The notes under the pieces were generated by a model, which searched no databases, had not been told where the DNA came from, and was given only the letters and a program-made list of their open reading frames with translations. 52,209 nucleotides of DNA from Armatimonadota bacterium (GTDB taxonomy: Bacteria > Armatimonadota > Fimbriimonadia > Fimbriimonadales > ATM1), in the NCBI GenBank assembly GCA_003577165.1, contig QEUM01000014.1, positions 1 to 52,209 of the forward strand. Direction: 5' to 3'. The position numbers and the translations under genes are program-made. Shown here one piece after another: positions 5,237-21,184 of the stretch. How positions within the stretch are numbered: position 1 is the stretch's first letter; every line of letters begins with the position of its first letter.

Positions 5237-5818
5237 ATGCGATGCGTGGAGGGCAGCGGACGCGAAGCCGTAATCCTCGCCGGGGGCCGAAGTTCGCGCA
5301 TGGGCCGCGCGAAGTCCGGCATCGTCGTGGACGGGCAGACGATCTTGGAGCGCATCGGCACGGAACTGGAGGGAGCAGGTTTTCTGGTCTCGATTCTCGG
5401 AGGCGATCCCGTCGAGAGGTGGCCACAGATTCCGGATTCGGTCGTTCACTCTGGCCCGTTGGCCGCGCTCGCGGACTACTCACTTCAAGGAGAAGCGCTG
5501 TTCGTCGCATCGTGCGACATGCCGCTGTTTCGCGGTGCGGCCGCCATCGCGGTTTTCGAGGCGCTGGGCGACGCGCACGCATGCATGCCGACCTTGGGCG
5601 GACGCGCGCAGCCTTTGTGCGCAGCCTATTCCGCCGGAGCGCTCGCCAGAGCGCGGGAGATGTCCGCGCAAGGCGAGACGCGCGTGATGAAGTGGGTGGA
5701 ATCGTTGGACACGCTCTTCCTCGACGAAGAGGATCTGCGAAACCGAGGGGTAGATCCGAACTGGGTGCGCAGCGCAAACACGCTGTCCGAATTGGAGGCG
5801 ATCCTCGAGGACGCTTAG
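5237..5818 (+). CDS. mobA: Molybdenum cofactor guanylyltransferase MobA
   Basis: About 193 residues. The N-terminal nucleotide-binding motif LAGGRSSRMGRAKSG and the later SCDMPLF metal/GTP-binding Asp motif are characteristic of MobA. The enzyme joins GMP to molybdopterin to give the guanine-dinucleotide form needed by DMSO-reductase-family enzymes, such as the one at 8.06 kb. I place the start at 5237 (MRCVEGSG), because upstream Met codons lie inside the promoter of the divergent CMD gene and encode a basic tail foreign to MobA. The 3' end meets the convergent Crp/Fnr gene (4-base overlap). Confidence 0.92.
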   Translation: MRCVEGSGREAVILAGGRSSRMGRAKSGIVVDGQTILERIGTELEGAGFLVSILGGDPVERWPQIPDSVVHSGPLAALADYSLQGEALFVASCDMPLFRGAAAIAVFEALGDAHACMPTLGGRAQPLCAAYSAGALARAREMSAQGETRVMKWVESLDTLFLDEEDLRNRGVDPNWVRSANTLSELEAILEDA

Positions 5819-6549
5819 CCCAACGTGTCGTTGAGCGACTGAAGGCAGTGCAGCGTGATGACTTGGTGGTCGGTCGTGAGGACGCCGTTCTTCTGCCACC
5901 GGCTCATCACGCGAATCGTGGTTTCCACCGTCGTTCCCGCCATTTCGGCGATGTCCTGGCGCGTTAGGGGCACTTCGAGAACGGTTCCAGTCTCCGCAGG
6001 CTTGCCATAGGAGGTCGCCAGGATGAGAAGGACCGCGGCGACGCGCTCTTCGACCTTGCCCGAAGACAGGCGCGTCATCATGTCGTATGCGCGGCGCAGC
6101 CGAGGGCCGAGCGTCTTCAGGATCATGTCCTTCAACTTCTCGTTATGCTCATAGACGTTGAGGAACAGAGGCGTCGGGATTTTGAGATACCAACAGTTGG
6201 AGACTGCGAGCGCGCTGAGGGGATAAATATGGCTTTCGATGGCGGCCATGATTCCTGCCGGCTGAGATGGGCCGAGGAGCTCCACCGTCACCTCGTGCCC
6301 GTGGGGTGAGGTCTTCGTGAGTTTGACGAAGCCGCTGCCGATGATGGCGATGAACTCGGCCGTTGCGCCGGATAACCAAATGACTTCGCCGCGTTCCGCG
6401 TAGGCGAGGTACGAGTTCTGTTCGAGCAGACCGAAGTCCTCATCGCTCAGCGAACTGAGAACTTCGCACTGGCGAAGCACGTCGCGATGGTTCGGGCGCT
6501 TAGCGACTTCTCTCATATAGTTTCTCAGGGCTCCGACCCTCTCACGCAC
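5815..6549 (-). CDS. Crp/Fnr-family transcriptional regulator (first paralogue)
   Basis: 244 residues from a GTG at 6549, or 233 from ATG 6516. An N-terminal cyclic-nucleotide-like beta-barrel (GEVIWLSGATAEF, IGSGFVKL) is followed by a long dimer helix and a winged HTH (LTRQDIAEMAGTTVETTIR). The recognition helix reads E-T-T-I-R where FNR has E-x-x-S-R and CRP has E-x-x-G-R. It lacks the FNR cysteine cluster, so direct Fe-S oxygen sensing is unlikely; an NO- or haem-sensing DNR-like role is possible but not shown. It overlaps the end of nnrS by 8 bases, so the two are one operon. I infer that it binds the TATGAC-N4-GTCATA palindromes. Confidence 0.92.
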   Translation of the reverse strand: MRERVGALRNYMREVAKRPNHRDVLRQCEVLSSLSDEDFGLLEQNSYLAYAERGEVIWLSGATAEFIAIIGSGFVKLTKTSPHGHEVTVELLGPSQPAGIMAAIESHIYPLSALAVSNCWYLKIPTPLFLNVYEHNEKLKDMILKTLGPRLRRAYDMMTRLSSGKVEERVAAVLLILATSYGKPAETGTVLEVPLTRQDIAEMAGTTVETTIRVMSRWQKNGVLTTDHQVITLHCLQSLNDTLG

Positions 6550-7894
6550 TGGCGAGCCTCGCTTTCGGAAGAATCAGGCCAAGCACGGACGCGGCCCAGA
6601 TGCCGAGGCCGACCAGTTCGACGAAACCCGTGAACCCCATCGGCGCGAATGCGATCGGAGTGAAGTCGGTCGCGACTTCGCACGCGACGCGCGCCATGTT
6701 CCCAATGTTGATGAGCCAGAAAACTGACCAGAGTCGGGGAAGGCTTGTCGGGTCGCGATCCGTCATCGAGGCCGCCACATGAAGTGAGAAGCCGATGATC
6801 ATCTGTGAAATGAAGCCGACCGTCACCGCGTGGCGGATCGCCCCGGTGTAGGCGTGAGAAAAGGGAACCCCGAGGAGGCTGAGGTGAACCGGCTCCCAGA
6901 CGAGAAGGACGCCCGCGATGAACAGCCACGCAAGGGAGGCGCGCTGGAACTTGTGCGAGCGGAGGTATGTGTCGGCCGGCTCGAAAATCCGCGCTGCGAC
7001 GATGGCAGCGGTCGCTCCGAATAGCAGGAGCGGGCCCGAAGCGTAGTAGAGGGCTCCCGCGCCCGGCGCCAGGCCCGCATCGAAGAACTGAATCCAGCCG
7101 ACGATGCGGACGATGACGCCGAGATTCCAGAGGAAGAAGGCCGCATTCGCCCAAGCCCGGAGAGGCTCACGGTAGCCGAAGCAATGGCTGAACTTGGACA
7201 GCCCGACTCCGAAAATCATGTTCGCAACAAATCCGAGGAAGGTGGCCTCCCTGTATGGAGAGAACCACTGGGCCACGAATTGAATCGAGGCATTGGGATC
7301 GGACTGGTGTGAACCGGCGAACAGGATCGGATCGAGCCATGCGATGCCTATGAAGTAGAAGAGGGAAACGAAGACGTAGAGCGTTTGCCAGGGGGCCTTG
7401 CCCTGCTTACTGCGCGTCAGGCCGATGTTGGCGACGAACAGCGTGACTCCGACCGCCTGAAGGACGGAGGAGCCGATTCCCACTGGGAGCCACACCTCCG
7501 GCTGCACCCGAACGAGGGGCTCGGCGGCGAACCTCAGGCCGATGCCAACGGCGATCGTGATGAGGCTCAGCCAGGCGAGTGTATTGAACAGCCTGAGTTT
7601 GCTCTGCATCGGCGCGTGCTGCTGCAGGGCGAAACCGATGATGAAGAAGCCGACCCATCCGAAGACCTGGCTGTTGGCGTGCGCGAGCACGTAGGGGGTC
7701 CAGGCCGACGCTGTGTAACTTCCCTGGACGGAGATGCCGTAAAGGGCGACGGCGCCGAGCAGACAGCCTGCCGTTAGAACGGAGAGAATCCCTGCGATGA
7801 AAAAGGGCTTGTAGATTTCGACGAATGCCTTCCGTTCCTCCGGCTTGTTGCGTGTGAGGAGCTGGACGTTTGAGGCAGTGGCTGGGGATGACAT
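6542..7894 (-). CDS. nnrS: NnrS-family multi-pass haem-copper membrane protein
   Basis: About 450 residues with roughly 12 membrane helices. NnrS signatures are clear: HANSQVFGWVGFFIIGFAL near residue 70 and RHAVTVGFISQMIIGFSLH near 355, with conserved His residues that bind haem/copper in the family. NnrS proteins are linked to nitric-oxide or nitrosative-stress tolerance and are often under NO-responsive Crp/Fnr control. I choose the start at 7894 (MSSPATASN) rather than 7993: the longer version would read through two operator palindromes and adds a non-conserved tail, and an AGGAT lies 10-14 bases upstream of 7894. It is divergent from the molybdoenzyme operon. Confidence 0.88.
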   Translation of the reverse strand: MSSPATASNVQLLTRNKPEERKAFVEIYKPFFIAGILSVLTAGCLLGAVALYGISVQGSYTASAWTPYVLAHANSQVFGWVGFFIIGFALQQHAPMQSKLRLFNTLAWLSLITIAVGIGLRFAAEPLVRVQPEVWLPVGIGSSVLQAVGVTLFVANIGLTRSKQGKAPWQTLYVFVSLFYFIGIAWLDPILFAGSHQSDPNASIQFVAQWFSPYREATFLGFVANMIFGVGLSKFSHCFGYREPLRAWANAAFFLWNLGVIVRIVGWIQFFDAGLAPGAGALYYASGPLLLFGATAAIVAARIFEPADTYLRSHKFQRASLAWLFIAGVLLVWEPVHLSLLGVPFSHAYTGAIRHAVTVGFISQMIIGFSLHVAASMTDRDPTSLPRLWSVFWLINIGNMARVACEVATDFTPIAFAPMGFTGFVELVGLGIWAASVLGLILPKARLASA

Positions 7895-7933
7895 GCCTGA
7901 AATGAATCCTATGTCGAAGGGGTAGACGCCTGA

Positions 7934-7949
7934 CATGACACGCGTCATA
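7934..7949. promoter_or_regulatory. Crp/Fnr-type operator, site 1 (CATGAC-ACGC-GTCATA)
   Basis: It matches 11 of 12 positions of the local consensus TATGAC-N4-GTCATA. It lies 40 bases upstream of the chosen nnrS start, 45 bp centre-to-centre from site 2. Confidence 0.7.
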
Positions 7950-7978
7950 ATTTCGCGTAGATAAGGAATGGGCGGAGT

Positions 7979-7994
7979 TATGACAGGTGTCATA
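7979..7994. promoter_or_regulatory. Crp/Fnr-type operator, site 2 (TATGAC-AGGT-GTCATA)
   Basis: A perfect 6+6 inverted repeat with a 4-base spacer, in the nnrS / molybdoenzyme intergenic region. The inner TGA-N6-TCA core has the spacing of an FNR box (TTGAT-N4-ATCAA), with A and C replacing the outer T and T. The centre is at 7986.5, about 72 bases before the molybdoenzyme start codon. Confidence 0.8.
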
Positions 7995-8058: not shown

Positions 8059-10503
8059 ATGGCAACACGACACCCAGTCCCTGGACGCCACATGGGCGCC
8101 ATACCCGAGCCGAAAGGGAACGTCCGCGTCGTTCGCACCACCGACAGCCCGAACTGCACGGGCGCATGTGGATGGCTTGCCACTGTGGTTGACGACGTCA
8201 TCGTCGATCTCAAGCCTGCCGCCGACTATCCGTGCGAGGAGTACAACCCGCGCGGCTGTCTGCGCGGCATGTCCATGACGCACATGATCTACGGGCCGGA
8301 CCGCATCAAGCGCCCGCTGATCCGCACGGGTGCGCGTGGAGAAGGCAAGTGGCGCGAGGCGTCGTGGGACGAAGCACTCGACTACATCGCCGAGAAGATG
8401 ATCCACATCCGTGACAACTACGGATACGAGAGCATCATGCTCTTCAACCAGGTTGTCGGAACAGGTTACGTTCAGAAGGGTGCACAAATCCGAATGGCGG
8501 CGAAACTCGGGATGTCATTCGCCACCGCATACGACTTTAACGGCGACATCTCAATGGGCTTCACTCACACCGTCGGGATTGACTGCGTGGAATGCGAAAC
8601 GAAGAGTTGGGGCTACGCCCGCTACGCCATCTTGTGGTCGAGCAACGTGTTCCAAACGAGAATTCCAGATGCGAAGTTTCTGACGAAGCACGCAAAGCAG
8701 AACAACAACTGCAAGATCGTCTGCATTGACCCGAGATGCAGTCAAACGGCAAAGGGCGCCGACCTCTGGCTGCCCATCCACCCCGGCACGGACTGCGCCC
8801 TCGCTCTCTCCATGTGCCATGTGATCATGGAGAAGAACCTGGTGGATTGGAAGTTCCTCCAGAAATTCACCGACTGCTGCACGTTCGTGAGATCCGACAA
8901 CGGGATGAGGCTTCGAGCCTCTGACCTGGGCTTGGGCAGCGAAAGCGAGTTCGTGGTGTGGGATGAAGGGAAGAACGATTGGTTCGTCCTCCCGGCGGAC
9001 ACCCTCAAACTGCCGGAAGACGCGAAGTTCGCCTTTCGCGGAACGCGCACCGTAAACATCGGCGGCCAAGACGTGAAGGTCACGCCGGTGTTCCAGATAC
9101 TCGAAGACGTGATCATGCGGGACGAGTACCGGCCGGAGAACGTCGCGAAGATCACCGACATCCCGGCCGAGACGATTCGCCAGATCGCAACCGAGTACGC
9201 GACGATTCGCCCCGCCTCCATCATCATCGGAATGGGGATCAACCACAGGCTGCACGGCGACCTCACGATGCGCGCGATCCTGTTCCTGGCTTCGCTCGTG
9301 GGCGCACACGGGAAGCCCGGCGAATCCGTTTCGATCTACTCCGGACAGCACCACTTCCGCCTCGACGTTTCCGGGTGGTGGTTCCCGAACGGAAAGCGGC
9401 CGAACATGGTGCCGATGCACTACTTCGTCATGGGTCGGCCGACGAAGACGATCAACCCAAAGATCAAGTTCCCTCAGCATGGATTCCACGGACTGATCGT
9501 CTCGCACGCGAATCCGCTCGTTACCGAGTTTTCAGGTCCACTCAAGGAGGCGATTGACCGCTGCGAGTTGTATGTCGCCATCGACTTTTCAATGACGCCG
9601 ACGTGCGAGTATGCGGACGTGGTGCTCCCGGCGCCCACTTTTTGGGAGAAGTACGAACTCGTCGGCACGAGCTGCCATCCGTACTTGCAGATACAGCAGG
9701 AGGTGGTGCCGCCGCAATATGACAGCCGCACAGAGTTCTGGATCGTGCAAGAACTCATCCGACGGCTGGATCCAAGCCTTCTGCCGGAATTCGATTACAC
9801 GGAATTCGACGCCATCGAGATGATGCTCGCGACGGGCGGAAAGGAAGTGGAGGGTATCACCCTCGATGCCCTGATGAAGGGACCGGTGCGCCTGAAGGTG
9901 CACGATCCGGAGTGCGGACTCGATGAGCAGATTCATGACGAGAAGCCGTTCCCTCCGCGTGCCTATCCGTTCCCCGAAGGCGCGCAGCGCGAATTCCTAA
10001 AGACCGGTCGCATGGAGTTCTACAAGGAAGAGGAAGTCTTCGGCAAACTCGGCGAATCGGTGCCTGTCTACAAGCCATCGTTCGAGCACCTGCATCCTGA
10101 AGATCAGGCCTTGCCGTTCTCGATAGTAACGCCGCACTCGAAGTGGCGTGTGCACTCGACGCACAGCAACAACCCGGTGCTCCTCAACCTCAACCGCAAG
10201 CCGGTCGTCGAGATCAATCCGAAGGACGCGGCGGAGAGAGGCATCTCGGACGGCGATGAGGTTGAAATTTACAACCGGCGGGGATCGTATCGCCTCTGGG
10301 CCCTTGTCACCGAGGCGATCAAACCGGGAGTGCTGTGCACAGATCACGCATGGTGGGACCGTTACCTAGCGGGCGGCCACTACCAAAGCGTGCACACATT
10401 CCAAACCGTGAAACCCACGCACGAAAACTACTACATGCCTGCCGTCTACGCGCCTGGGCAACACTGGAAGGACACAAGGGTCGAGATTAGGAAGGTGAAA
10501 TAG
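8059..10503 (+). CDS. Molybdopterin oxidoreductase catalytic subunit, NarG-like (type II DMSO-reductase-like)
   Basis: 814 residues. The N-terminal Fe-S motif reads D29-x3-C33-x3-C37 with C67 in PRGCLRG; in NarG the first ligand is His, so this FS0 site would be Asp/Cys3. Downstream, YDFNGD (D163) aligns with the NarG segment whose Asp binds molybdenum, and SSNVFQTRIPDAKF and VVEINPKDAAERGISDGDEV are molybdopterin-binding motifs. No Tat signal is seen, so it should work in the cytoplasm. It is much shorter than NarG (about 1,200). The Fe-S/cytochrome fusion follows after one base. NarK neighbours favour nitrate as substrate; nitrite, chlorate or selenate cannot be excluded. No NarJ-type chaperone gene is in the window. 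Confidence 0.88.
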   Translation: MATRHPVPGRHMGAIPEPKGNVRVVRTTDSPNCTGACGWLATVVDDVIVDLKPAADYPCEEYNPRGCLRGMSMTHMIYGPDRIKRPLIRTGARGEGKWREASWDEALDYIAEKMIHIRDNYGYESIMLFNQVVGTGYVQKGAQIRMAAKLGMSFATAYDFNGDISMGFTHTVGIDCVECETKSWGYARYAILWSSNVFQTRIPDAKFLTKHAKQNNNCKIVCIDPRCSQTAKGADLWLPIHPGTDCALALSMCHVIMEKNLVDWKFLQKFTDCCTFVRSDNGMRLRASDLGLGSESEFVVWDEGKNDWFVLPADTLKLPEDAKFAFRGTRTVNIGGQDVKVTPVFQILEDVIMRDEYRPENVAKITDIPAETIRQIATEYATIRPASIIIGMGINHRLHGDLTMRAILFLASLVGAHGKPGESVSIYSGQHHFRLDVSGWWFPNGKRPNMVPMHYFVMGRPTKTINPKIKFPQHGFHGLIVSHANPLVTEFSGPLKEAIDRCELYVAIDFSMTPTCEYADVVLPAPTFWEKYELVGTSCHPYLQIQQEVVPPQYDSRTEFWIVQELIRRLDPSLLPEFDYTEFDAIEMMLATGGKEVEGITLDALMKGPVRLKVHDPECGLDEQIHDEKPFPPRAYPFPEGAQREFLKTGRMEFYKEEEVFGKLGESVPVYKPSFEHLHPEDQALPFSIVTPHSKWRVHSTHSNNPVLLNLNRKPVVEINPKDAAERGISDGDEVEIYNRRGSYRLWALVTEAIKPGVLCTDHAWWDRYLAGGHYQSVHTFQTVKPTHENYYMPAVYAPGQHWKDTRVEIRKVK

Positions 10504-10504
10504 C

Positions 10505-12394
10505 ATGGCGCGGATGGCGATGCTCATCGACCTGACGCGATGCATCGGATGCGATGCATGCACAGTCGCCTGCAAGCAGGAGAACGGAACGCCCGTCGAC
10601 GTCTTCTTCGCTCGCGTGCTGAACGTGGAGTACGGCACGTATCCGAACGTGAAGCGCGTTTACATCCCGGTTCTCTGCAATCACTGCGACGATGCGCCTT
10701 GTCTTAAGAGTTGTCCGAACAAAGCGATTATCCGCAGGCAAGACGGGATCGTCCTGATCGATCAGGATCGGTGCCGAGGGACTGGAGCGTGCGTCTCTGC
10801 ATGCCCATACGGGAACATCTATCTCAACACGCACGATCACTGGTATCTCAACCCCGATGAGCCTTACGAGCGAGACTTCGTCAAACCGAGGCTCAGAAGA
10901 AACGTCGCGCGCAAATGCACGTACTGCGCTCACAGAGTGGACGAGGGGCTCGATCCCGCTTGCGTCGTCGCATGCCCCACCACCGCCCGCATCTTTGGCG
11001 ACTTGGACGATTCCGACAGCGTGATCTCGAAATACATCCGCGAGCAGAAGGAAACGACTGCCCGAGAGCCGTTCCACCTCCTTCCTGAGGCGGGCACGAA
11101 GCCCGCGGGCCTTTACCTCGGAACGATGTCCGAACAGCAGGTTTCGACGCTCGGCGAGCGTGCGCCGGCGGAAACGGTCGAATACGTGCCTTACGAGAGC
11201 GCGGAGCCTCCCGTCGACGGGGCGCACGCGGGTCGAAGCACTGGTCTCTCCCTGATTCTCGGTTTAGTTCTTGGGTTCGGACTGCTCGCATCGTCTGCGC
11301 AGGCCCAATCGGACGCGACCATCGCGTCAAAGGCCAACGCATTGGACGTGTACTCTACGACGACCTGCGGCGGCTGCCATGGCGTGGAAGCGATGGGCGG
11401 TTTCGGCCCTCCGCTTGCGCGCACGAAGCTGACGCTCGAAGAGTTCCGCCAGATTGTAAGGAAAGGGCAGGGAATGATGCCCTCCATTCCCGCCTCGGAG
11501 CTTTCGGACGCGGATCTGAGTTCCACGTACAACGAAGTCAAAGCCGCGGAATGGAAGGAAGAGCAGATCCCGATTGCGTACAAGGTGGGACAACTGCTCA
11601 GCACGAAGAACGTCTCGAAGTTCTTCACATGGGTGTTCATCATCTCGTTCCTCTTCGGCCTCAAAGTGCTTTGGTACTGGCTGAGCGCGGCAGGGATCAA
11701 ACACCTAATGCCATACCTGGGCAAGGTCGGCTACGCGAAATCAGCTTTCATCGCACTTCGCAGCCTGGTGGTGGACGGTCTGCTCGTCGCATCACTTTGG
11801 AGACGGAGCAAGAAGCGGTGGTTCATGCACGGCCTCATGCTCTACGGAATGATCGGCCTCATCGTGGCGGACATCCTGATGGCGATCTACAACCCCTCGA
11901 GGAGCCACCTGCCGCTCAACGACCCACTGAAGTGGCTTCCCGTGGGATCGGGAATCGCAGTCTTCCTCGGCGCGCTATACGTCAAGATTCGGTACTCCAC
12001 GGACGAATACATTGACAACGGCCTGACACTTGGAAGAGACTTCCTCTTCGTAAACCTGCTATTCCACACTGTCTTCAGCGGTTTTCTCGACGTTTGGATC
12101 GGTCGAGTCGGCGAGCCCGGATGGGTCATGCCGATTCACATCTATCACCTGGCTTGCGTTGCCCTATTGATGCTGACCGCTCCCTTCACTCGCTTCCAGC
12201 ATGCATTCGTCGTGCCGTTCTTGGTGGCAATGACGAGGCTTTCGGAAGCTGTGACTCAAGGCCAAGCGCATCCCGGATTCGTGTATGAGCCTTCCCCTGG
12301 AAGGCATCACAAGTCGGAGCGCATCGCCTCCGACGTCATCCAGAACATCGACCCGGACTTCAAAGGGAAGGTCCGAATTCGTTACTACCCGTAG
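10505..12394 (+). CDS. Three-part electron-transfer fusion: NarH-like Fe-S, cytochrome c, NarI-like cytochrome b
   Basis: 629 residues. Residues 1-200 form a four-cluster ferredoxin subunit: C13-x2-C-x2-C-x3-C, C58-x2-C-x4-C-x3-C, C90-R-G-T-G-A-C96-x3-C100 and C138-x2-C-x11-C-x3-C. The Thr in the third motif replaces a Cys; NarH has Trp there and carries a [3Fe-4S] cluster. Residues 244-268 look like a whole signal peptide (Arg, Leu-rich core, SSAQA). CGGCH at 288-292 is a haem-c site, with GMMP near 324 as likely Met ligand. From 373 there are about five membrane helices; IYH548 and FQH566 match the NarI haem-b histidines. It likely links Rieske/cytochrome b to the molybdenum subunit. Confidence 0.88.
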   Translation: MARMAMLIDLTRCIGCDACTVACKQENGTPVDVFFARVLNVEYGTYPNVKRVYIPVLCNHCDDAPCLKSCPNKAIIRRQDGIVLIDQDRCRGTGACVSACPYGNIYLNTHDHWYLNPDEPYERDFVKPRLRRNVARKCTYCAHRVDEGLDPACVVACPTTARIFGDLDDSDSVISKYIREQKETTAREPFHLLPEAGTKPAGLYLGTMSEQQVSTLGERAPAETVEYVPYESAEPPVDGAHAGRSTGLSLILGLVLGFGLLASSAQAQSDATIASKANALDVYSTTTCGGCHGVEAMGGFGPPLARTKLTLEEFRQIVRKGQGMMPSIPASELSDADLSSTYNEVKAAEWKEEQIPIAYKVGQLLSTKNVSKFFTWVFIISFLFGLKVLWYWLSAAGIKHLMPYLGKVGYAKSAFIALRSLVVDGLLVASLWRRSKKRWFMHGLMLYGMIGLIVADILMAIYNPSRSHLPLNDPLKWLPVGSGIAVFLGALYVKIRYSTDEYIDNGLTLGRDFLFVNLLFHTVFSGFLDVWIGRVGEPGWVMPIHIYHLACVALLMLTAPFTRFQHAFVVPFLVAMTRLSEAVTQGQAHPGFVYEPSPGRHHKSERIASDVIQNIDPDFKGKVRIRYYP

Positions 12395-12411: not shown

Positions 12412-12921
12412 ATGAGCGAACCAACTCAATCAACAAAATTCGGCGAAGAACCGGAGTCGCCACAGCGCAGAAAGGTTCTCGGCTGGCTCGTCGGAGTCAT
12501 CAACCTTCTCGTCGTCGGCGCCGTCATCGGTCCGGTTCTCGGCTTCATGGGAGGCCCGCTTGCGCGCAGGCGCGAGTCACCGCAATGGATCCCGGTCATG
12601 GACGAGTCCGACCTGCCCGACGGGTCCGTCCGCGAGGTGAAGTACGCGGTTCGCGTGCAGGACGGATACAGAATTGCGAACCACGAGTACGTCGTGTATC
12701 TGAAGCGGAACGGTTCCGAAGTCATCGCCCTCGATCCGACTTGCACTCACCTCGGCTGCCGAGTGAAGTACCAGGAGGAAAAGAGCCGTTTCTTCTGCCC
12801 ATGCCATGGCGGCGTCTTCGACGCAGAAGGCAAGGTCGTGAGCGGACCGCCCCCCCGGGCTCTCGACCGACACTCGGCGAAGTTCGAAGGCGGCAAAGTC
12901 TGGGTGAAGCGAGAGGCATAA
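12412..12921 (+). CDS. Rieske [2Fe-2S] protein
   Basis: 169 residues. An N-terminal membrane anchor (residues 22-46) follows a QRRK motif that may serve as a Tat-type signal. The Rieske cluster boxes are complete: CTHLGC (C111, H113) and CPCHGG (C129, H132), followed by SGPPPRAL, the usual Pro loop. It is the high-potential subunit of a quinol:cytochrome c/plastocyanin-type complex with the next gene, taking one electron from quinol and passing it to a cytochrome c, here probably the haem c of the preceding fusion. It starts 17 bases after the fusion gene and ends three bases before cytochrome b, so it is in the same operon. Confidence 0.95.
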   Translation: MSEPTQSTKFGEEPESPQRRKVLGWLVGVINLLVVGAVIGPVLGFMGGPLARRRESPQWIPVMDESDLPDGSVREVKYAVRVQDGYRIANHEYVVYLKRNGSEVIALDPTCTHLGCRVKYQEEKSRFFCPCHGGVFDAEGKVVSGPPPRALDRHSAKFEGGKVWVKREA

Positions 12922-12924
12922 GCG

Positions 12925-14121
12925 ATGGAACAGAAGGACCTAACGCCTGAATCTCCAGTAGTACGCGAGCCGGAGCCGGTTACCGAAGAAGAGCGCCTGC
13001 GTCGTGCACGGCCCGGGCTGAAAGACTGGCTCGAACTGCGACTCGGCTGGTGGGGTTTCGTTCGCAAGAACTTGGACGAACCGATGCCTCCCGGCGTCGG
13101 ATGGTGGCAGACGCTCGGCAATCTTGTCCTCACACTGCTGGTCTTCCAATTTGTGACCGGCATCGCCCTGGCGATGTATTACAGCCCCTCACCGGACACG
13201 GCGTACCAGAGCGTGAAGCACATCACGGAGAACGTCACGCTTGGCTCCTTCGTCCGTGGGCTGCACAGTTACGGATCGAGTGCGATCATGATCGCGATCG
13301 TTCTCCACATTCTGCGGACGTTCTTCTGGGGCTCCTACAAGAGACCCCGAGAACTTACGTGGGTCGTCGGTAGCGTGATCTTCATGATTATGCTGGGCTT
13401 CTCCTTCACTGGCTACCTTTTGCCGTGGGATCAGAAGGCGTATTGGGCGACCGTGGTCGGGACGAGAATCATCGCAACGGTTCCGCTCGTCGGCGAAAGC
13501 CTGCTCGTCCTGGTACGGGGGGGCGAAGAAGTCGGCGCCCTGACCTTGACTCGGTTCTATGCGATTCACATCATGCTTCTCCCGGCGGGGCTGATCGCGC
13601 TGACTGGACTTCACCTCTATCTCGTTCGCAGGCACCACATTGCAGGGCCCGTAACGCCGGTGAAGGGCAGGCCACGCCCCTTCTATCCTTCGCAACTGTT
13701 CAAGGACGCAGTTGTCGTGTTGGTCGGGGTGGGGGCCGTCGTGTTCCTGGCGATCGCCATGCCGCCGGGACTCGAAGGAGTCGCCGATCCGACGGGAACG
13801 GACTTTGCGCCGAGGCCCGAGTGGTATTTCCTCGGCCTCTACGAACTTCTCAAGATCATGCCGCCCGGTTACGAGGTCTTAGCGACGTTCGTGATTCCCG
13901 GAATCATCAGCGTCGGGATGCTCATCCTTCCGTGGCTTGACCGATCGAGGTCGAGGCATCCCGGAAAGAGGCAACTCATCATCGACCTCGCGATGGCAGT
14001 CATCCTGTTGATCGGTCTCTGCACGTTGAAGGGAATCCTGGAGACGCCTCCGCCTCACACACCCAGCGAGGCATCGCATTCTGCGGCTGCACCTGAAACG
14101 GCTACAATGGCCGAGCGGTGA
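12925..14121 (+). CDS. Cytochrome b (b6 plus subunit IV fused) of a Rieske/cytb complex
   Basis: 398 residues with eight predicted helices. Haem ligands H114/H128 and H215/H230 are present; the 14 residues between the second pair are the b6-type spacing rather than the bc1 type. The quinol-site motif PEWY is at 298-301, within the subunit-IV half. A 50-residue charged N-terminal extension and an Ala/Pro/Ser C-terminal tail are atypical. With the Rieske protein this is the core of a menaquinol-oxidising complex. No separate cytochrome c1 or f gene follows; the haem c needed may be the one inside the fusion at 10.5 kb. Confidence 0.93.
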   Translation: MEQKDLTPESPVVREPEPVTEEERLRRARPGLKDWLELRLGWWGFVRKNLDEPMPPGVGWWQTLGNLVLTLLVFQFVTGIALAMYYSPSPDTAYQSVKHITENVTLGSFVRGLHSYGSSAIMIAIVLHILRTFFWGSYKRPRELTWVVGSVIFMIMLGFSFTGYLLPWDQKAYWATVVGTRIIATVPLVGESLLVLVRGGEEVGALTLTRFYAIHIMLLPAGLIALTGLHLYLVRRHHIAGPVTPVKGRPRPFYPSQLFKDAVVVLVGVGAVVFLAIAMPPGLEGVADPTGTDFAPRPEWYFLGLYELLKIMPPGYEVLATFVIPGIISVGMLILPWLDRSRSRHPGKRQLIIDLAMAVILLIGLCTLKGILETPPPHTPSEASHSAAAPETATMAER

Positions 14122-16058
14122 GCCCGGAACCGACGAGCACGCAAATCAGCGCCTGGTTCACAGGACCGAAGGCGGAGAACGGGGAGGCCTTCGCGCAACT
14201 TTTGGGCCGCGTCGTTGCCGATTATCACTACTGGCGCAGAAACTACTTCCCGCAGGACGGAATCGTCGTGGACTCGCACATGCGGCGCGAGCATGCCGAC
14301 TTCTGGGACTCTTTCGACGACAAACTCAACGAACTGCTCGCGCTGCTCAAGGCTGACTTTCCGTTTCACAGCCCGCGCTACGCTGCGCACATGCTCTGCG
14401 AACAGACCCTTCCGAGCATCGCCGGATACTTCGCCGGAATGCTCTACAACCCGAACAACGTGACCGCAGAAGCGGCGCCTGTGACGGTGAGACTCGAACT
14501 CGAAGCCGCGCACATGGTCGCTCGGATGTTGGGCTACGGCGAGGACTCGTGGGCGCACATCACTTCGGGGGGGACAGTCGCGAACATCGAAGCGCTGTGG
14601 ATCGCGCGAAACGCCCGCTATCTGCCTCTGCTCACGAACGAAATGCGCGATCTTCTCGGGCTCGAGCCGGCAGTTTTCGAAGATTGGCGGAGTGTGCGCC
14701 CGCTCGACTGCCTTCGCATGTTGGAGGGAGTGTTCACAGAAGCTGAAGAAAAGTACGGAGCGAATGCCGAGACGGTGAGGCGCGCGATCTGGGCGTTTCG
14801 GCAGGCGAAGTCGAATGCCGCCGTTGCTGGAATGGCGAGCGTCATCGAACACTGCGGGTCCAAGCCTTATCTCTTTGTGCCGGAGACGGCCCACTACTGC
14901 CTGTCGAAATCTCTTGATGTTCTGGGAGTCGGTCGAGGATCCCTCGTCTCGGTGCCGGTAAACGATCAGTTCGAGATGGACGTTGGCGCGCTCTCATCCC
15001 TTTTGGGCGAAATGGAATCTTCGGGGGGGCACGCTCTCGCCGTCGTCGCCGTCATTGGAAGCACGGAGGAGGGAGCGATCGATCCTCTCAACGAACTCCT
15101 GGACCTGCGATCCGCACGCGAAGACGCTGGGAAGCAGTCATTTTGGATTCACGCGGACGCGGCCTACGGAGGCTATCTGAGAACGATGACGGTGCCTTCG
15201 AGAATCGGGCTCGGCGACCCGAAGACGACGGTTCGAGTCGGTTCTCAGTCCGTCGAGTTGGAACTGAGTTTGCCGCACCGAAGCGCGTGCGATTCCTTGG
15301 AGCGTCTCGGAGAGTGCGACTCGATCGCGATCGACCCGCACAAGTTGGGTTACGTGCCTTATCCCGCGGGCGTCGTCTGCTTCCGTTCCAACCTGGTGAA
15401 AGCACTCGCTCGCCAGGATGCGCCGTACATCGAGGAGGCAGCCTCCGATCCGAGCGCTGAGAGGAGCGCGGAAGGCATCGGCGTCTACATCCTCGAAGGC
15501 AGCAAACCGGGGGCCGCCGCCGCCAGCGTCTGGCTGAGTCACAAGTTGATACCTCTCGACGGCTCCGCGCACGGAGTGTTGATGCGGGAGTCGGTGCGCA
15601 ACGCGAGCGAACTTCACACGCTCCTCGAACAGTGGCCCTCCTTGACGGGCGAGGAATCTGTGAGGGCGGTTACGCTCTGCACTCCGGGTTCGAACATCGT
15701 CTGTTACGCTTTTCGCGCGACGAACCGCGACATGTCCCTTCAAGAGATCAACGCCCTGAACCGGCGCCTTTACCAAGAGTTCAGCATGACGCCAGGAGCC
15801 GACCGCCCGATCCAAGATCAGAGGTTCTTCGTGAGCCGAACGGTTCTGTCTTCTGCTCAGTATAAGGTGCAAACCGTGAAGGGGTTCTTGGATCGGTTGG
15901 GAGTGTGCGAAGAGGAGTACGAGCGGGAGGGCGTGTTCCTGCTGCGTTCGGTGCTGATGAACCCGTGGTACGGCGCAGCCAAGGCCCGGGGCCAGTATTA
16001 CGTGTCAGAACTAGTGGGCGACCTCTTCTGTGCGACCAGGCGGATCACATCATCGTAG
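14118..16058 (+). CDS. PLP-dependent aromatic amino-acid decarboxylase (bacterial tyrosine-decarboxylase type)
   Basis: 646 residues, close to Enterococcus TyrDC (about 620). Motifs: HITSGGTVANIEALW (PLP phosphate), VIGSTEEGAIDPL, IHADAAYGGY (PLP-ring Asp), and SIAIDPHKLGYVPYPAG with the Schiff-base Lys near residue 408. YILEGSKPGAAAASVWLSHK is strongly TyrDC-like. It would remove CO2 from tyrosine or a related amino acid in the cytoplasm. The GTG start overlaps the cytochrome b stop by four bases (GTGA), implying translational coupling with the respiratory operon; the link is unexplained. No amino-acid/amine antiporter is adjacent. Confidence 0.88.
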   Translation: MSPEPTSTQISAWFTGPKAENGEAFAQLLGRVVADYHYWRRNYFPQDGIVVDSHMRREHADFWDSFDDKLNELLALLKADFPFHSPRYAAHMLCEQTLPSIAGYFAGMLYNPNNVTAEAAPVTVRLELEAAHMVARMLGYGEDSWAHITSGGTVANIEALWIARNARYLPLLTNEMRDLLGLEPAVFEDWRSVRPLDCLRMLEGVFTEAEEKYGANAETVRRAIWAFRQAKSNAAVAGMASVIEHCGSKPYLFVPETAHYCLSKSLDVLGVGRGSLVSVPVNDQFEMDVGALSSLLGEMESSGGHALAVVAVIGSTEEGAIDPLNELLDLRSAREDAGKQSFWIHADAAYGGYLRTMTVPSRIGLGDPKTTVRVGSQSVELELSLPHRSACDSLERLGECDSIAIDPHKLGYVPYPAGVVCFRSNLVKALARQDAPYIEEAASDPSAERSAEGIGVYILEGSKPGAAAASVWLSHKLIPLDGSAHGVLMRESVRNASELHTLLEQWPSLTGEESVRAVTLCTPGSNIVCYAFRATNRDMSLQEINALNRRLYQEFSMTPGADRPIQDQRFFVSRTVLSSAQYKVQTVKGFLDRLGVCEEEYEREGVFLLRSVLMNPWYGAAKARGQYYVSELVGDLFCATRRITSS

Positions 16059-19822: not shown

Positions 19823-21184
19823 TTAGCAGGGCCGCTCTGCGCCGCCCCGTGCGTAGAACCACCAGTTCAGCACGAGGTTGAACAGATAGAAGACGGCAAC
19901 GCTGTAGAAGAACACACTCGCGGTGCCGAACGATTGGAGGCAGCTGCCGACCGCCACCGAGAAGATGAAGGGCCCGTAAGCGGCGATCGCAGAAGTCCAT
20001 CCGATGACGCCCGCAGCCTGCCTCGGCTCGAAGATCATCGGCATCTGCTTGAATGTCGAAGCGTTGCCTGCGCCGCAGAAGAAGAACAATCCCAGCATGA
20101 ACCACACGAAACCTGGAAACTGATCGAGTGAGGTTGGGTTGGTATAGAAAGTCACCCCGATCGCGCAAACGATGAGGCCGATGGCGCTGAACATCGTGAC
20201 CTTCGCGCCACCGATCTTGTCGCTGATGGGGCCGAACAGAATTCTCACAAGCGCTCCCACGAGCGGGCCGAGGAAGGCGTACTTGAGAGGATCCGGCCCC
20301 CCCTCGAACTTGCTCGTGTAAACCTCCTTGATGAGGAGAGGGAAGATTGCGGCAAATCCGGAGAACGAGCCGAACGTCATGATATAGAGCGAAGTCATGC
20401 ACCACGTGTGCTTGTTCTTGAAGATGTCAGTCTGCTCGCGGACAGTTGCTCGAACAGGCACGCTCCGCAGATAGATCATTGATAGAAGCGCAGCGAGGAG
20501 GATGAACGGCACCCAGATGTACGCCGCGTTCTGCAGCCAGAGCGCCGAAGTCTGTCCTTCTTTGGTGAACGTCTGGCTTCCGCCGAGCAGGCTGCCGAAC
20601 AACGCGAACCCGATGATCCAGGGCACGACGAACTGTGCGACCGACACACCGAAGTTCCCGATTCCGGCTTGTATCGCGAGCGCGGTTCCCTGAAGCCTCT
20701 TGGGGAAGAAGAGGCTGGTCGACGGCATGAACGAAGAGAAGTTGCCTCCACCGAAACCTGCGAGGAACGCCAAGAGCATCAGCACCCCAAACGGCGTGTC
20801 GGGGTTTTGAACTGCGATCCCCCACCCGATGCATGGAATCGCGAGCAGCAGCGTGGAAACGGTCACCGTCGTTCGCGTGCCAAACACGGGGATAAGGAAT
20901 GTGTGAACGATTCGCAGCGTTCCGCCCGCGAGGCCCGGCATAGCCGTGAGCCAGAAGAGTTGCTCATTCGTAAGGTCAAAGCCTATGCCCTGTAGCTTGA
21001 CGACGATGGCGCTTACGAAGAACCACGTAAAAAACGCGAGCATCAGAGAGAAAGTGGTGAAAATGAGAGTTCTCCACGCGATCGCTTTACCCGTGCTTTC
21101 CCAAAATGCGGCGTCTTCGGGACTCCACTCGCGTATCCACGTGCCGCCTTTCGCTCCCGATGTTGGTTCGCTTGCTGTGCTCAT
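19823..21184 (-). CDS. narK: NarK-type nitrate/nitrite transporter
   Basis: 453 residues, 12 membrane helices of the major facilitator type. The N-terminal SPEDAAFWESTGKAIAWR is the usual NarK leader. Nitrate signature segments are present (GGGNFSSFMPSTSLFFPK), and two membrane Arg residues in GGTLRIV and GALVRILFG match the substrate-binding pair. It should import nitrate or exchange nitrate for nitrite across the inner membrane, feeding the cytoplasm-facing molybdoenzyme at 8.06 kb. It follows the other narK by 35 bases on the same strand, so they form an operon. Confidence 0.93.
   Translation of the reverse strand: MSTASEPTSGAKGGTWIREWSPEDAAFWESTGKAIAWRTLIFTTFSLMLAFFTWFFVSAIVVKLQGIGFDLTNEQLFWLTAMPGLAGGTLRIVHTFLIPVFGTRTTVTVSTLLLAIPCIGWGIAVQNPDTPFGVLMLLAFLAGFGGGNFSSFMPSTSLFFPKRLQGTALAIQAGIGNFGVSVAQFVVPWIIGFALFGSLLGGSQTFTKEGQTSALWLQNAAYIWVPFILLAALLSMIYLRSVPVRATVREQTDIFKNKHTWCMTSLYIMTFGSFSGFAAIFPLLIKEVYTSKFEGGPDPLKYAFLGPLVGALVRILFGPISDKIGGAKVTMFSAIGLIVCAIGVTFYTNPTSLDQFPGFVWFMLGLFFFCGAGNASTFKQMPMIFEPRQAAGVIGWTSAIAAYGPFIFSVAVGSCLQSFGTASVFFYSVAVFYLFNLVLNWWFYARGGAERPC

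Follow-up and report, generated by a model that had tools for sequence, protein, structure and literature searches.

Partial precedents for an electron route from a Rieske protein through a cytochrome c to haem b are known from two nar operons. In Thermus thermophilus, narCGHJI encodes NarC, a periplasmic cytochrome c that is the partner of NarI (PMC7694296), and in Haloferax mediterranei the genes of a Rieske protein (narB) and a cytochrome b (narC) travel with narG and narH in the nar operon and are predicted to provide a Q-cycle feed (PMC2483277). We describe here an operon that resembles the Thermus NarC/NarI pair plus the haloarchaeal NarBC pair. It lies in a window of 52,209 nucleotides, the whole stretch of DNA analysed (contig QEUM01000014.1), from an Armatimonadota genome of 2.7 Mb that is 97% complete. 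As in Thermus, a predicted periplasmic cytochrome c is the partner of a NarI-type cytochrome b, the enzyme would face the cytoplasm and a NarK gene lies nearby; Thermus differs in that NarC and NarI are separate proteins, NarJ is present, and neither a Rieske nor a cytochrome b gene belongs to the operon. As in the haloarchaeal nar operon, Rieske and cytochrome b genes stand beside those of the catalytic and Fe-S subunits; there, however, NarJ is present, and a NarI-type cytochrome b or a cytochrome c fused to the Fe-S subunit is not described.

Escherichia coli NarGHI shares with the present enzyme a type II molybdenum subunit with its Mo-ligand Asp, the loss of a Cys in Fe-S motif III, and a NarI fold in which His187 and His205 have equivalents. 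It consists of three chains plus NarJ, and assignment of the present enzyme to the NarGHI group was rejected: NarJ is missing, an Asp takes the place of NarG His49, the Fe-S part has half the length of NarH, and a His of NarI helix II is absent from the haem-b set of four; a cytochrome c is added besides. QmoC/HdrE-type fusions likewise join a NarI-like domain to an Fe-S domain, but they have no cytochrome c, no internal signal segment and another pattern of Fe-S motifs. A further parallel is the cytochrome b/c1 precursor FbcH of Bradyrhizobium japonicum, which is reportedly made from one gene, its parts being separated at an internal signal peptide by a cleavage that was shown experimentally. 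There as here, one gene serves a membrane protein and a cytochrome c with a signal peptide-like segment between; in FbcH the cytochrome b leads, whereas the present chain opens with a cytoplasmic Fe-S subunit and its cleavage is a prediction.

A composite gene and its operon

The gene at 10,505-12,394 (forward strand) is one uninterrupted frame of 629 codons with no stop, and its nearest homologues are assigned to Armatimonadetes, Fimbriimonadia and Fimbriimonadaceae. Along the chain, the Fe-S motifs are followed by a hydrophilic linker, a hydrophobic segment ending in SSAQA↓Q, a cytochrome c with the motif CGGCH and a NarI-like membrane part. The four-cluster Fe-S (beta) domain occupies residues 1-225 (10,505-11,179, forward strand) and carries the four motifs recognized at first reading: C13/16/19/23, C58/61/66/70, C90/96/100 and C138/141/153/157. 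Motif III has Thr93 where the fourth Cys is expected (among 36 relatives, 32 have Thr there and 4 have Ala), and its cluster is predicted to be 3Fe-4S. This Cys loss is indeed NarH-like, as the earlier note had called the whole subunit, but in length and score the domain is nearer to ArrB/PsrB (about 230 residues) than to NarH (512 residues). At about 225 residues it falls short of the NarH-type size of about 500; the models for ArrB, TtrB and DMSO_red_II_bet give 177, 170 and 133 bits, the narH model 78 bits against a cut-off of 524. Its PDB matches are 6cz7_B and 2vpw_B, ArrB being the best solved relative.

The cytochrome c domain (11,339-11,539, forward strand) matches Pfam Cytochrome_CBB3 (PF13442; E 2.7e-10, above its cut-off). 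The CGGCH haem c motif does follow the internal segment, at residues 288-292 (11,366-11,380), and a candidate Met ligand lies in GMMP at residues 323-326 (11,471-11,482), so that the CxxCH motif and distal Met of a class I cytochrome c are both in place. Of 37 relatives, 36 have a CxxCH motif. The haem c motif is doubled in G058, G069/G070 and the split G074/G075, as in the di-haem NarC of Thermus. Tandem cytochrome c domains ahead of the cytochrome b part were noted at the fused loci L006 (7,842-10,181, that is G058), L123 and L124 and at the split loci L010 and L014.

The NarI-fold cytochrome b spans residues 367-585 (11,603-12,259, forward strand), and the first description of these C-terminal helices as NarI-like is confirmed, the assignment resting on Pfam, hhalign and fold matches. 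At E<=0.1, Pfam Nitrate_red_gam (PF02665) is found in 30 of 31 family members (best 2.8e-6), the listed proteins not including that of the window, and hhalign aligns the membrane part with E. coli NarI at E 4e-5. The predicted structure of this part (pLDDT 81) matches the NarI fold with Z 10-11, where values under about 13 can reflect an arrangement common in helical bundles; the list of matches is headed by NarI and an EtfD chain of M. smegmatis. A QmoC match covers residues 378-566. Three His residues are invariant, His442, His548 and His566, and the equivalents of NarI His187 and His205 are present. NarI helix II carries two His, one per haem. Here helix II has a single invariant His (442), leaving three of the four haem-b ligands, and an invariant Asp456 (11,870-11,872) stands at the hhalign position of the distal haem ligand His66 of NarI. 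Either one haem b has been lost, leaving a long jump from the periplasm, or a haem b is held by another ligand; with one His in helix II, the route by which haem b would carry electrons from the periplasm, as proposed here, is not complete. The C-terminal tail is conserved (EPSPGRHHKS...RYYP).

Upstream of the fused gene lies that of the catalytic molybdopterin subunit (alpha; 8,059-10,503, forward strand; Pfam Molybdopterin, E 1e-54), and downstream follow, on the same strand, genes for a Rieske protein (12,412-12,921; motifs CTHLGC...CPCHG; Pfam Rieske, E 2e-14) and for a b6/bc-type cytochrome b with His114, His128, His215 and His230 (12,925-14,121; Pfam Cytochrome_B, E 2e-51). This order is kept across the readable loci. 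Alpha is kin to DMSO reductase type II: its best model match is TIGR03479 (483 bits, below the cut-off of 985), and it has the Asp that aligns with the Mo-ligand Asp222 of NarG. The best of its PDB relatives is PcrA of perchlorate reductase, followed by EbdA and NarG. Asp28 (8,140-8,142) replaces NarG His49, the first ligand of FS0, and is Asp in every relative with a readable motif; an Asp-ligated 4Fe-4S cluster is predicted. Alpha subunits lack a Tat motif.

The operon contains no NarJ gene, and Pfam Nitrate_red_del (NarJ) was found in 2 of 10 genomes tested. The NarJ match in the genome of the window was rejected as a partner; it belongs to a second type II molybdenum enzyme operon, on contig 13. 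That operon (L145, 2,937-9,621) encodes alpha, beta, chaperone and haem-b gamma-like proteins and is closest to ethylbenzene dehydrogenase/type II models. On contig 8 (L147, 2,273-6,652), another molybdopterin subunit is encoded beside a 550-residue protein whose N-terminus is 50% identical to the Fe-S domain of the window.

Fused and split relatives among the Armatimonadota

A search with the cytochrome c-b part across 291 Armatimonadota genomes found relatives in 38, of which 36 were scorable. The three-domain order that the earlier note proposed to look for in databases was found at 13 of these 36 loci, that is in the window and as fused orthologues in 12 other genomes, and the single chain of Fe-S domain, cytochrome c and NarI-like cytochrome b is thus real. 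At the other 23 loci two genes share the unit, one for the Fe-S domain and one for the remainder, which starts with an ordinary signal peptide, and every break falls at the internal segment. The premise that NarH, NarI and cytochromes are normally separate chains holds for NarGHI but not for the present family, in which fused and split forms coexist, and homologues are not always split at this point, as they might have been. In some Armatimonadota the architecture is a trait of the whole family, a new combination of known modules; no earlier description of the fusion was found in the literature searched, which takes in few subscription journals.

Could a sequencing or assembly error have joined two overlapping genes? 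Where the unit is split, its two genes use different reading frames and abut or overlap, and one indel could join them. An error of this kind is nevertheless extremely improbable: the 13 fused loci belong to different genera and families and have differing linkers free of stops. Since two of the fused genes come from single-contig genomes (G069 and G070) and each of the five genomes outside the class (G120, G169, G178, G179 and G183) has the fused form, the fusion is not an assembly error. A frameshift or stop between residues 200 and 280, which the earlier note had named as contrary evidence, is very unlikely, since other genera and genomes assembled as one contig also have fused homologues in frame. 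Across the linker, substitutions are biased to third positions and gaps are in frame. Between G178 and G183 the linker differs mostly at third codon positions and has no gaps; it is therefore translated.

In a tree of 490 columns, the fusion state changes at least three times, a single change not being rejected (p-AU 0.08). The fused state is plausibly ancestral: the outgroups are all fused, but deep branches are few and that of G169 is long. Fused and split forms of one electron-transfer unit, cut at the same signal peptide, thus occur within one phylum, and their coexistence amounts to a natural experiment on how gene fission and fusion follow membrane topology. In G169 (L121, 3,453-6,866), no stop separates the alpha frame from the Fe-S/c/b gene, and the open frame extends over 1,138 residues; the alpha gene of this genome, which is 64% complete, also looks broken upstream, and the run-on may be an error.

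Outside the phylum, sets of 400 genomes around a Thermomicrobium locus and 392 around a Pirellulaceae locus (two phyla) yielded no fused form, only partial, QmoC-like matches without CxxCH. A Chloroflexi locus (L030) considered as a fused form was rejected, its long open frame having no cytochrome c and helices of another pattern; in that genome, the cytochrome c-b profile finds a match for its cytochrome c portion only.

Topology and probable processing of the chain

The internal segment lies at residues 243-267 (11,231-11,305, forward strand). The earlier note had recognized its charged, hydrophobic and small-residue parts correctly but set it one residue too far along, the AQA ending at 267 and not at 268. 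Its suggestion that the chain leaves the cytoplasm at this segment, which brings the haem c domain to the periplasm, is well supported: alpha and the Fe-S part have no export signal, and the 23 split relatives begin with a normal signal peptide at this very point. Haem c attachment takes place in the periplasm. Lys and Arg abound in the loop behind the first cytochrome b helix, and the positive-inside rule therefore places this loop in the cytoplasm. Taken together, the lack of export signals, the periplasmic haem c and the cytoplasmic loop lead us to infer with strong confidence that the Fe-S domain is inside, the segment spans the membrane, the cytochrome c is outside and the C-terminus is inside, which for the cytochrome b part agrees with NarI, whose N-terminus is outside. 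The Fe-S domain would thus fold in the cytoplasm on the catalytic subunit, the segment would insert N-in/C-out and take the cytochrome c domain to the periplasm for haem c attachment, and the NarI-fold helices would return the chain to a cytoplasmic C-terminus.

The earlier note added that the chain may be cut to release two proteins. In all 13 fused genes, a hydrophobic core is followed by a small-x-small site and then by Q, N or D, in keeping with the signal peptidase I rule, although the linkers around this conserved site cannot be aligned with one another. The strict rule is passed by 13/13 fused segments and by 4/122 control helix ends of the same proteins (Fisher p 5e-15), and 1.1 of 13 would be expected to pass after shuffling; in a narrower search range, 12/13 fused segments and 15/23 split signal peptides pass. 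As in FbcH, an internal hydrophobic segment with a signal peptidase I site stands before a periplasmic domain. Cleavage, predicted from these sequence features, is thereby made likely, and we consider it probable that signal peptidase I cuts after residue 267 (AQA↓Q) and that two subunits arise from one gene. The cut would give an Fe-S subunit of 267 residues, ending in a hydrophobic tail, and a cytochrome c-b subunit of 362 residues, the very pair of proteins that split relatives encode in two genes. After cytochrome b/c1, the chain is thus a second candidate among respiratory precursors for processing by signal peptidase I.

A weaker but serious contender is a chain that stays whole, with the segment as an uncleaved signal anchor and Fe-S domain, cytochrome c and cytochrome b forming one covalent wire across the membrane. 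The hydrophobic cores are longer in fused genes than in split signal peptides (mean 18.1 versus 15.4; p 0.002), as expected of an uncut anchor and against cleavage, and the AlphaFold model draws a long helix at 243-276 with low confidence; the full-length model (pLDDT 54) is not good enough to judge the assembly. A further point against the main reading is the net charge ahead of the segment, which is -2 in the window and negative in 3/13 fused genes. Against an uncut anchor stands the (-3,-1) site kept in 13/13 fused genes amid linkers that cannot be aligned, and the split relatives show that a covalent link between the parts is dispensable. Separate translation of the two parts through an internal start, the open linker being incidental, is very improbable: an in-frame GTG at residue 228 does lie upstream of the segment in the window, but between it and the cytochrome c region there is no ATG, GTG or TTG, in the fused genes of G036 and G069/G070 the stretch from residue 208 to the hydrophobic core offers no start-like codon but CTG, and the substitutions in the G178/G183 linker are codon-like. 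Cleavage of one precursor by signal peptidase I is the reading we retain.

Proposed electron route and likely function

The gene neighbourhood points to nitrate. A gene for an NnrS-like membrane protein (6,542-7,993, reverse strand; Pfam NnrS, E 1.3e-8) is divergent to the operon and is accompanied by that of a CRP/FNR-family regulator (5,815-6,549, reverse strand; NCBIfam CRP/FNR models). About 5.7 kb away lies a gene for a NarK-family nitrate/nitrite transporter (19,823-21,184, reverse strand; NCBIfam TIGR00886, 308.5 bits against a cut-off of 311.7), and the NarK family is found within the fetched flank in 14/22 relatives as well as in the window. From these neighbours we propose nitrate as the substrate with moderate confidence. 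On balance, the fused gene probably encodes the electron carriers that supply a molybdenum oxidoreductase facing the cytoplasm; the enzyme is most likely a nitrate reductase. This reading includes the threading of the segment, its cleavage and the quinol route.

The Rieske protein and the paired-His cytochrome b have the features of bc/b6f complexes, and the first 22 kb of the window hold no cytochrome c1 or f gene for such a complex, nor any CxxCH open frame besides the fusion gene. In the single-contig genome G069, the sole Rieske protein is that of the operon. As the fusion protein is the sole haem c protein in these 22 kb and the operon supplies the sole Rieske protein of G069, we propose that electrons pass from the Rieske protein to the cytochrome c domain and on to haem b; confidence in the Rieske-to-cytochrome c step is weak to moderate. 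The full route would run from menaquinol through the cytochrome b and Rieske protein of the operon to the cytochrome c domain, haem b, the Fe-S clusters and the Mo centre. The claim that one gene fixes the electron path is not supported, since the catalytic subunit, the Rieske protein and cytochrome b are encoded by separate genes and the NarI-like part is without one of the four haem-b His.

Tentatively, the Fe-S and cytochrome c-b subunits could be made as one precursor that is ancestral in the Armatimonadota and was later split, the released cytochrome c replacing cytochrome c1 in a dedicated bc-type complex, so that a quinol:nitrate supercomplex would conserve energy by a Q-cycle. The enzyme might instead work in reverse, as a nitrite oxidoreductase passing electrons to periplasmic cytochrome c, or act on another oxyanion such as (per)chlorate or arsenate, which we regard as rather unlikely. 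The best solved relatives of alpha and of the Fe-S part, PcrA and ArrB, would suit other oxyanions, and in Nitrobacter a comparable NarC/NarI arrangement reportedly sends electrons outwards (PMC7694296). The NarK-family, CRP/FNR and NnrS neighbours and the Rieske/cytochrome b pair nevertheless fit quinol-driven nitrate reduction better.

If the proposed quinol-driven route is true, the enzyme's own cytochrome c would link nitrate reduction to a Q-cycle complex, in contrast to the redox loop by which NarGHI works, and the NarI-like subunit involved has lost a haem ligand. The operon also suggests a nitrate-reducing capacity of Armatimonadota that would be missed when canonical narG is used as the marker; anammox and wastewater communities include members of the phylum. 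Directly after the cytochrome b gene, the window has a further long open frame (14,118-16,058), judged from its sequence to be like a PLP-dependent decarboxylase; in L126, too, the operon has a homologue of this frame (56%) nearby.
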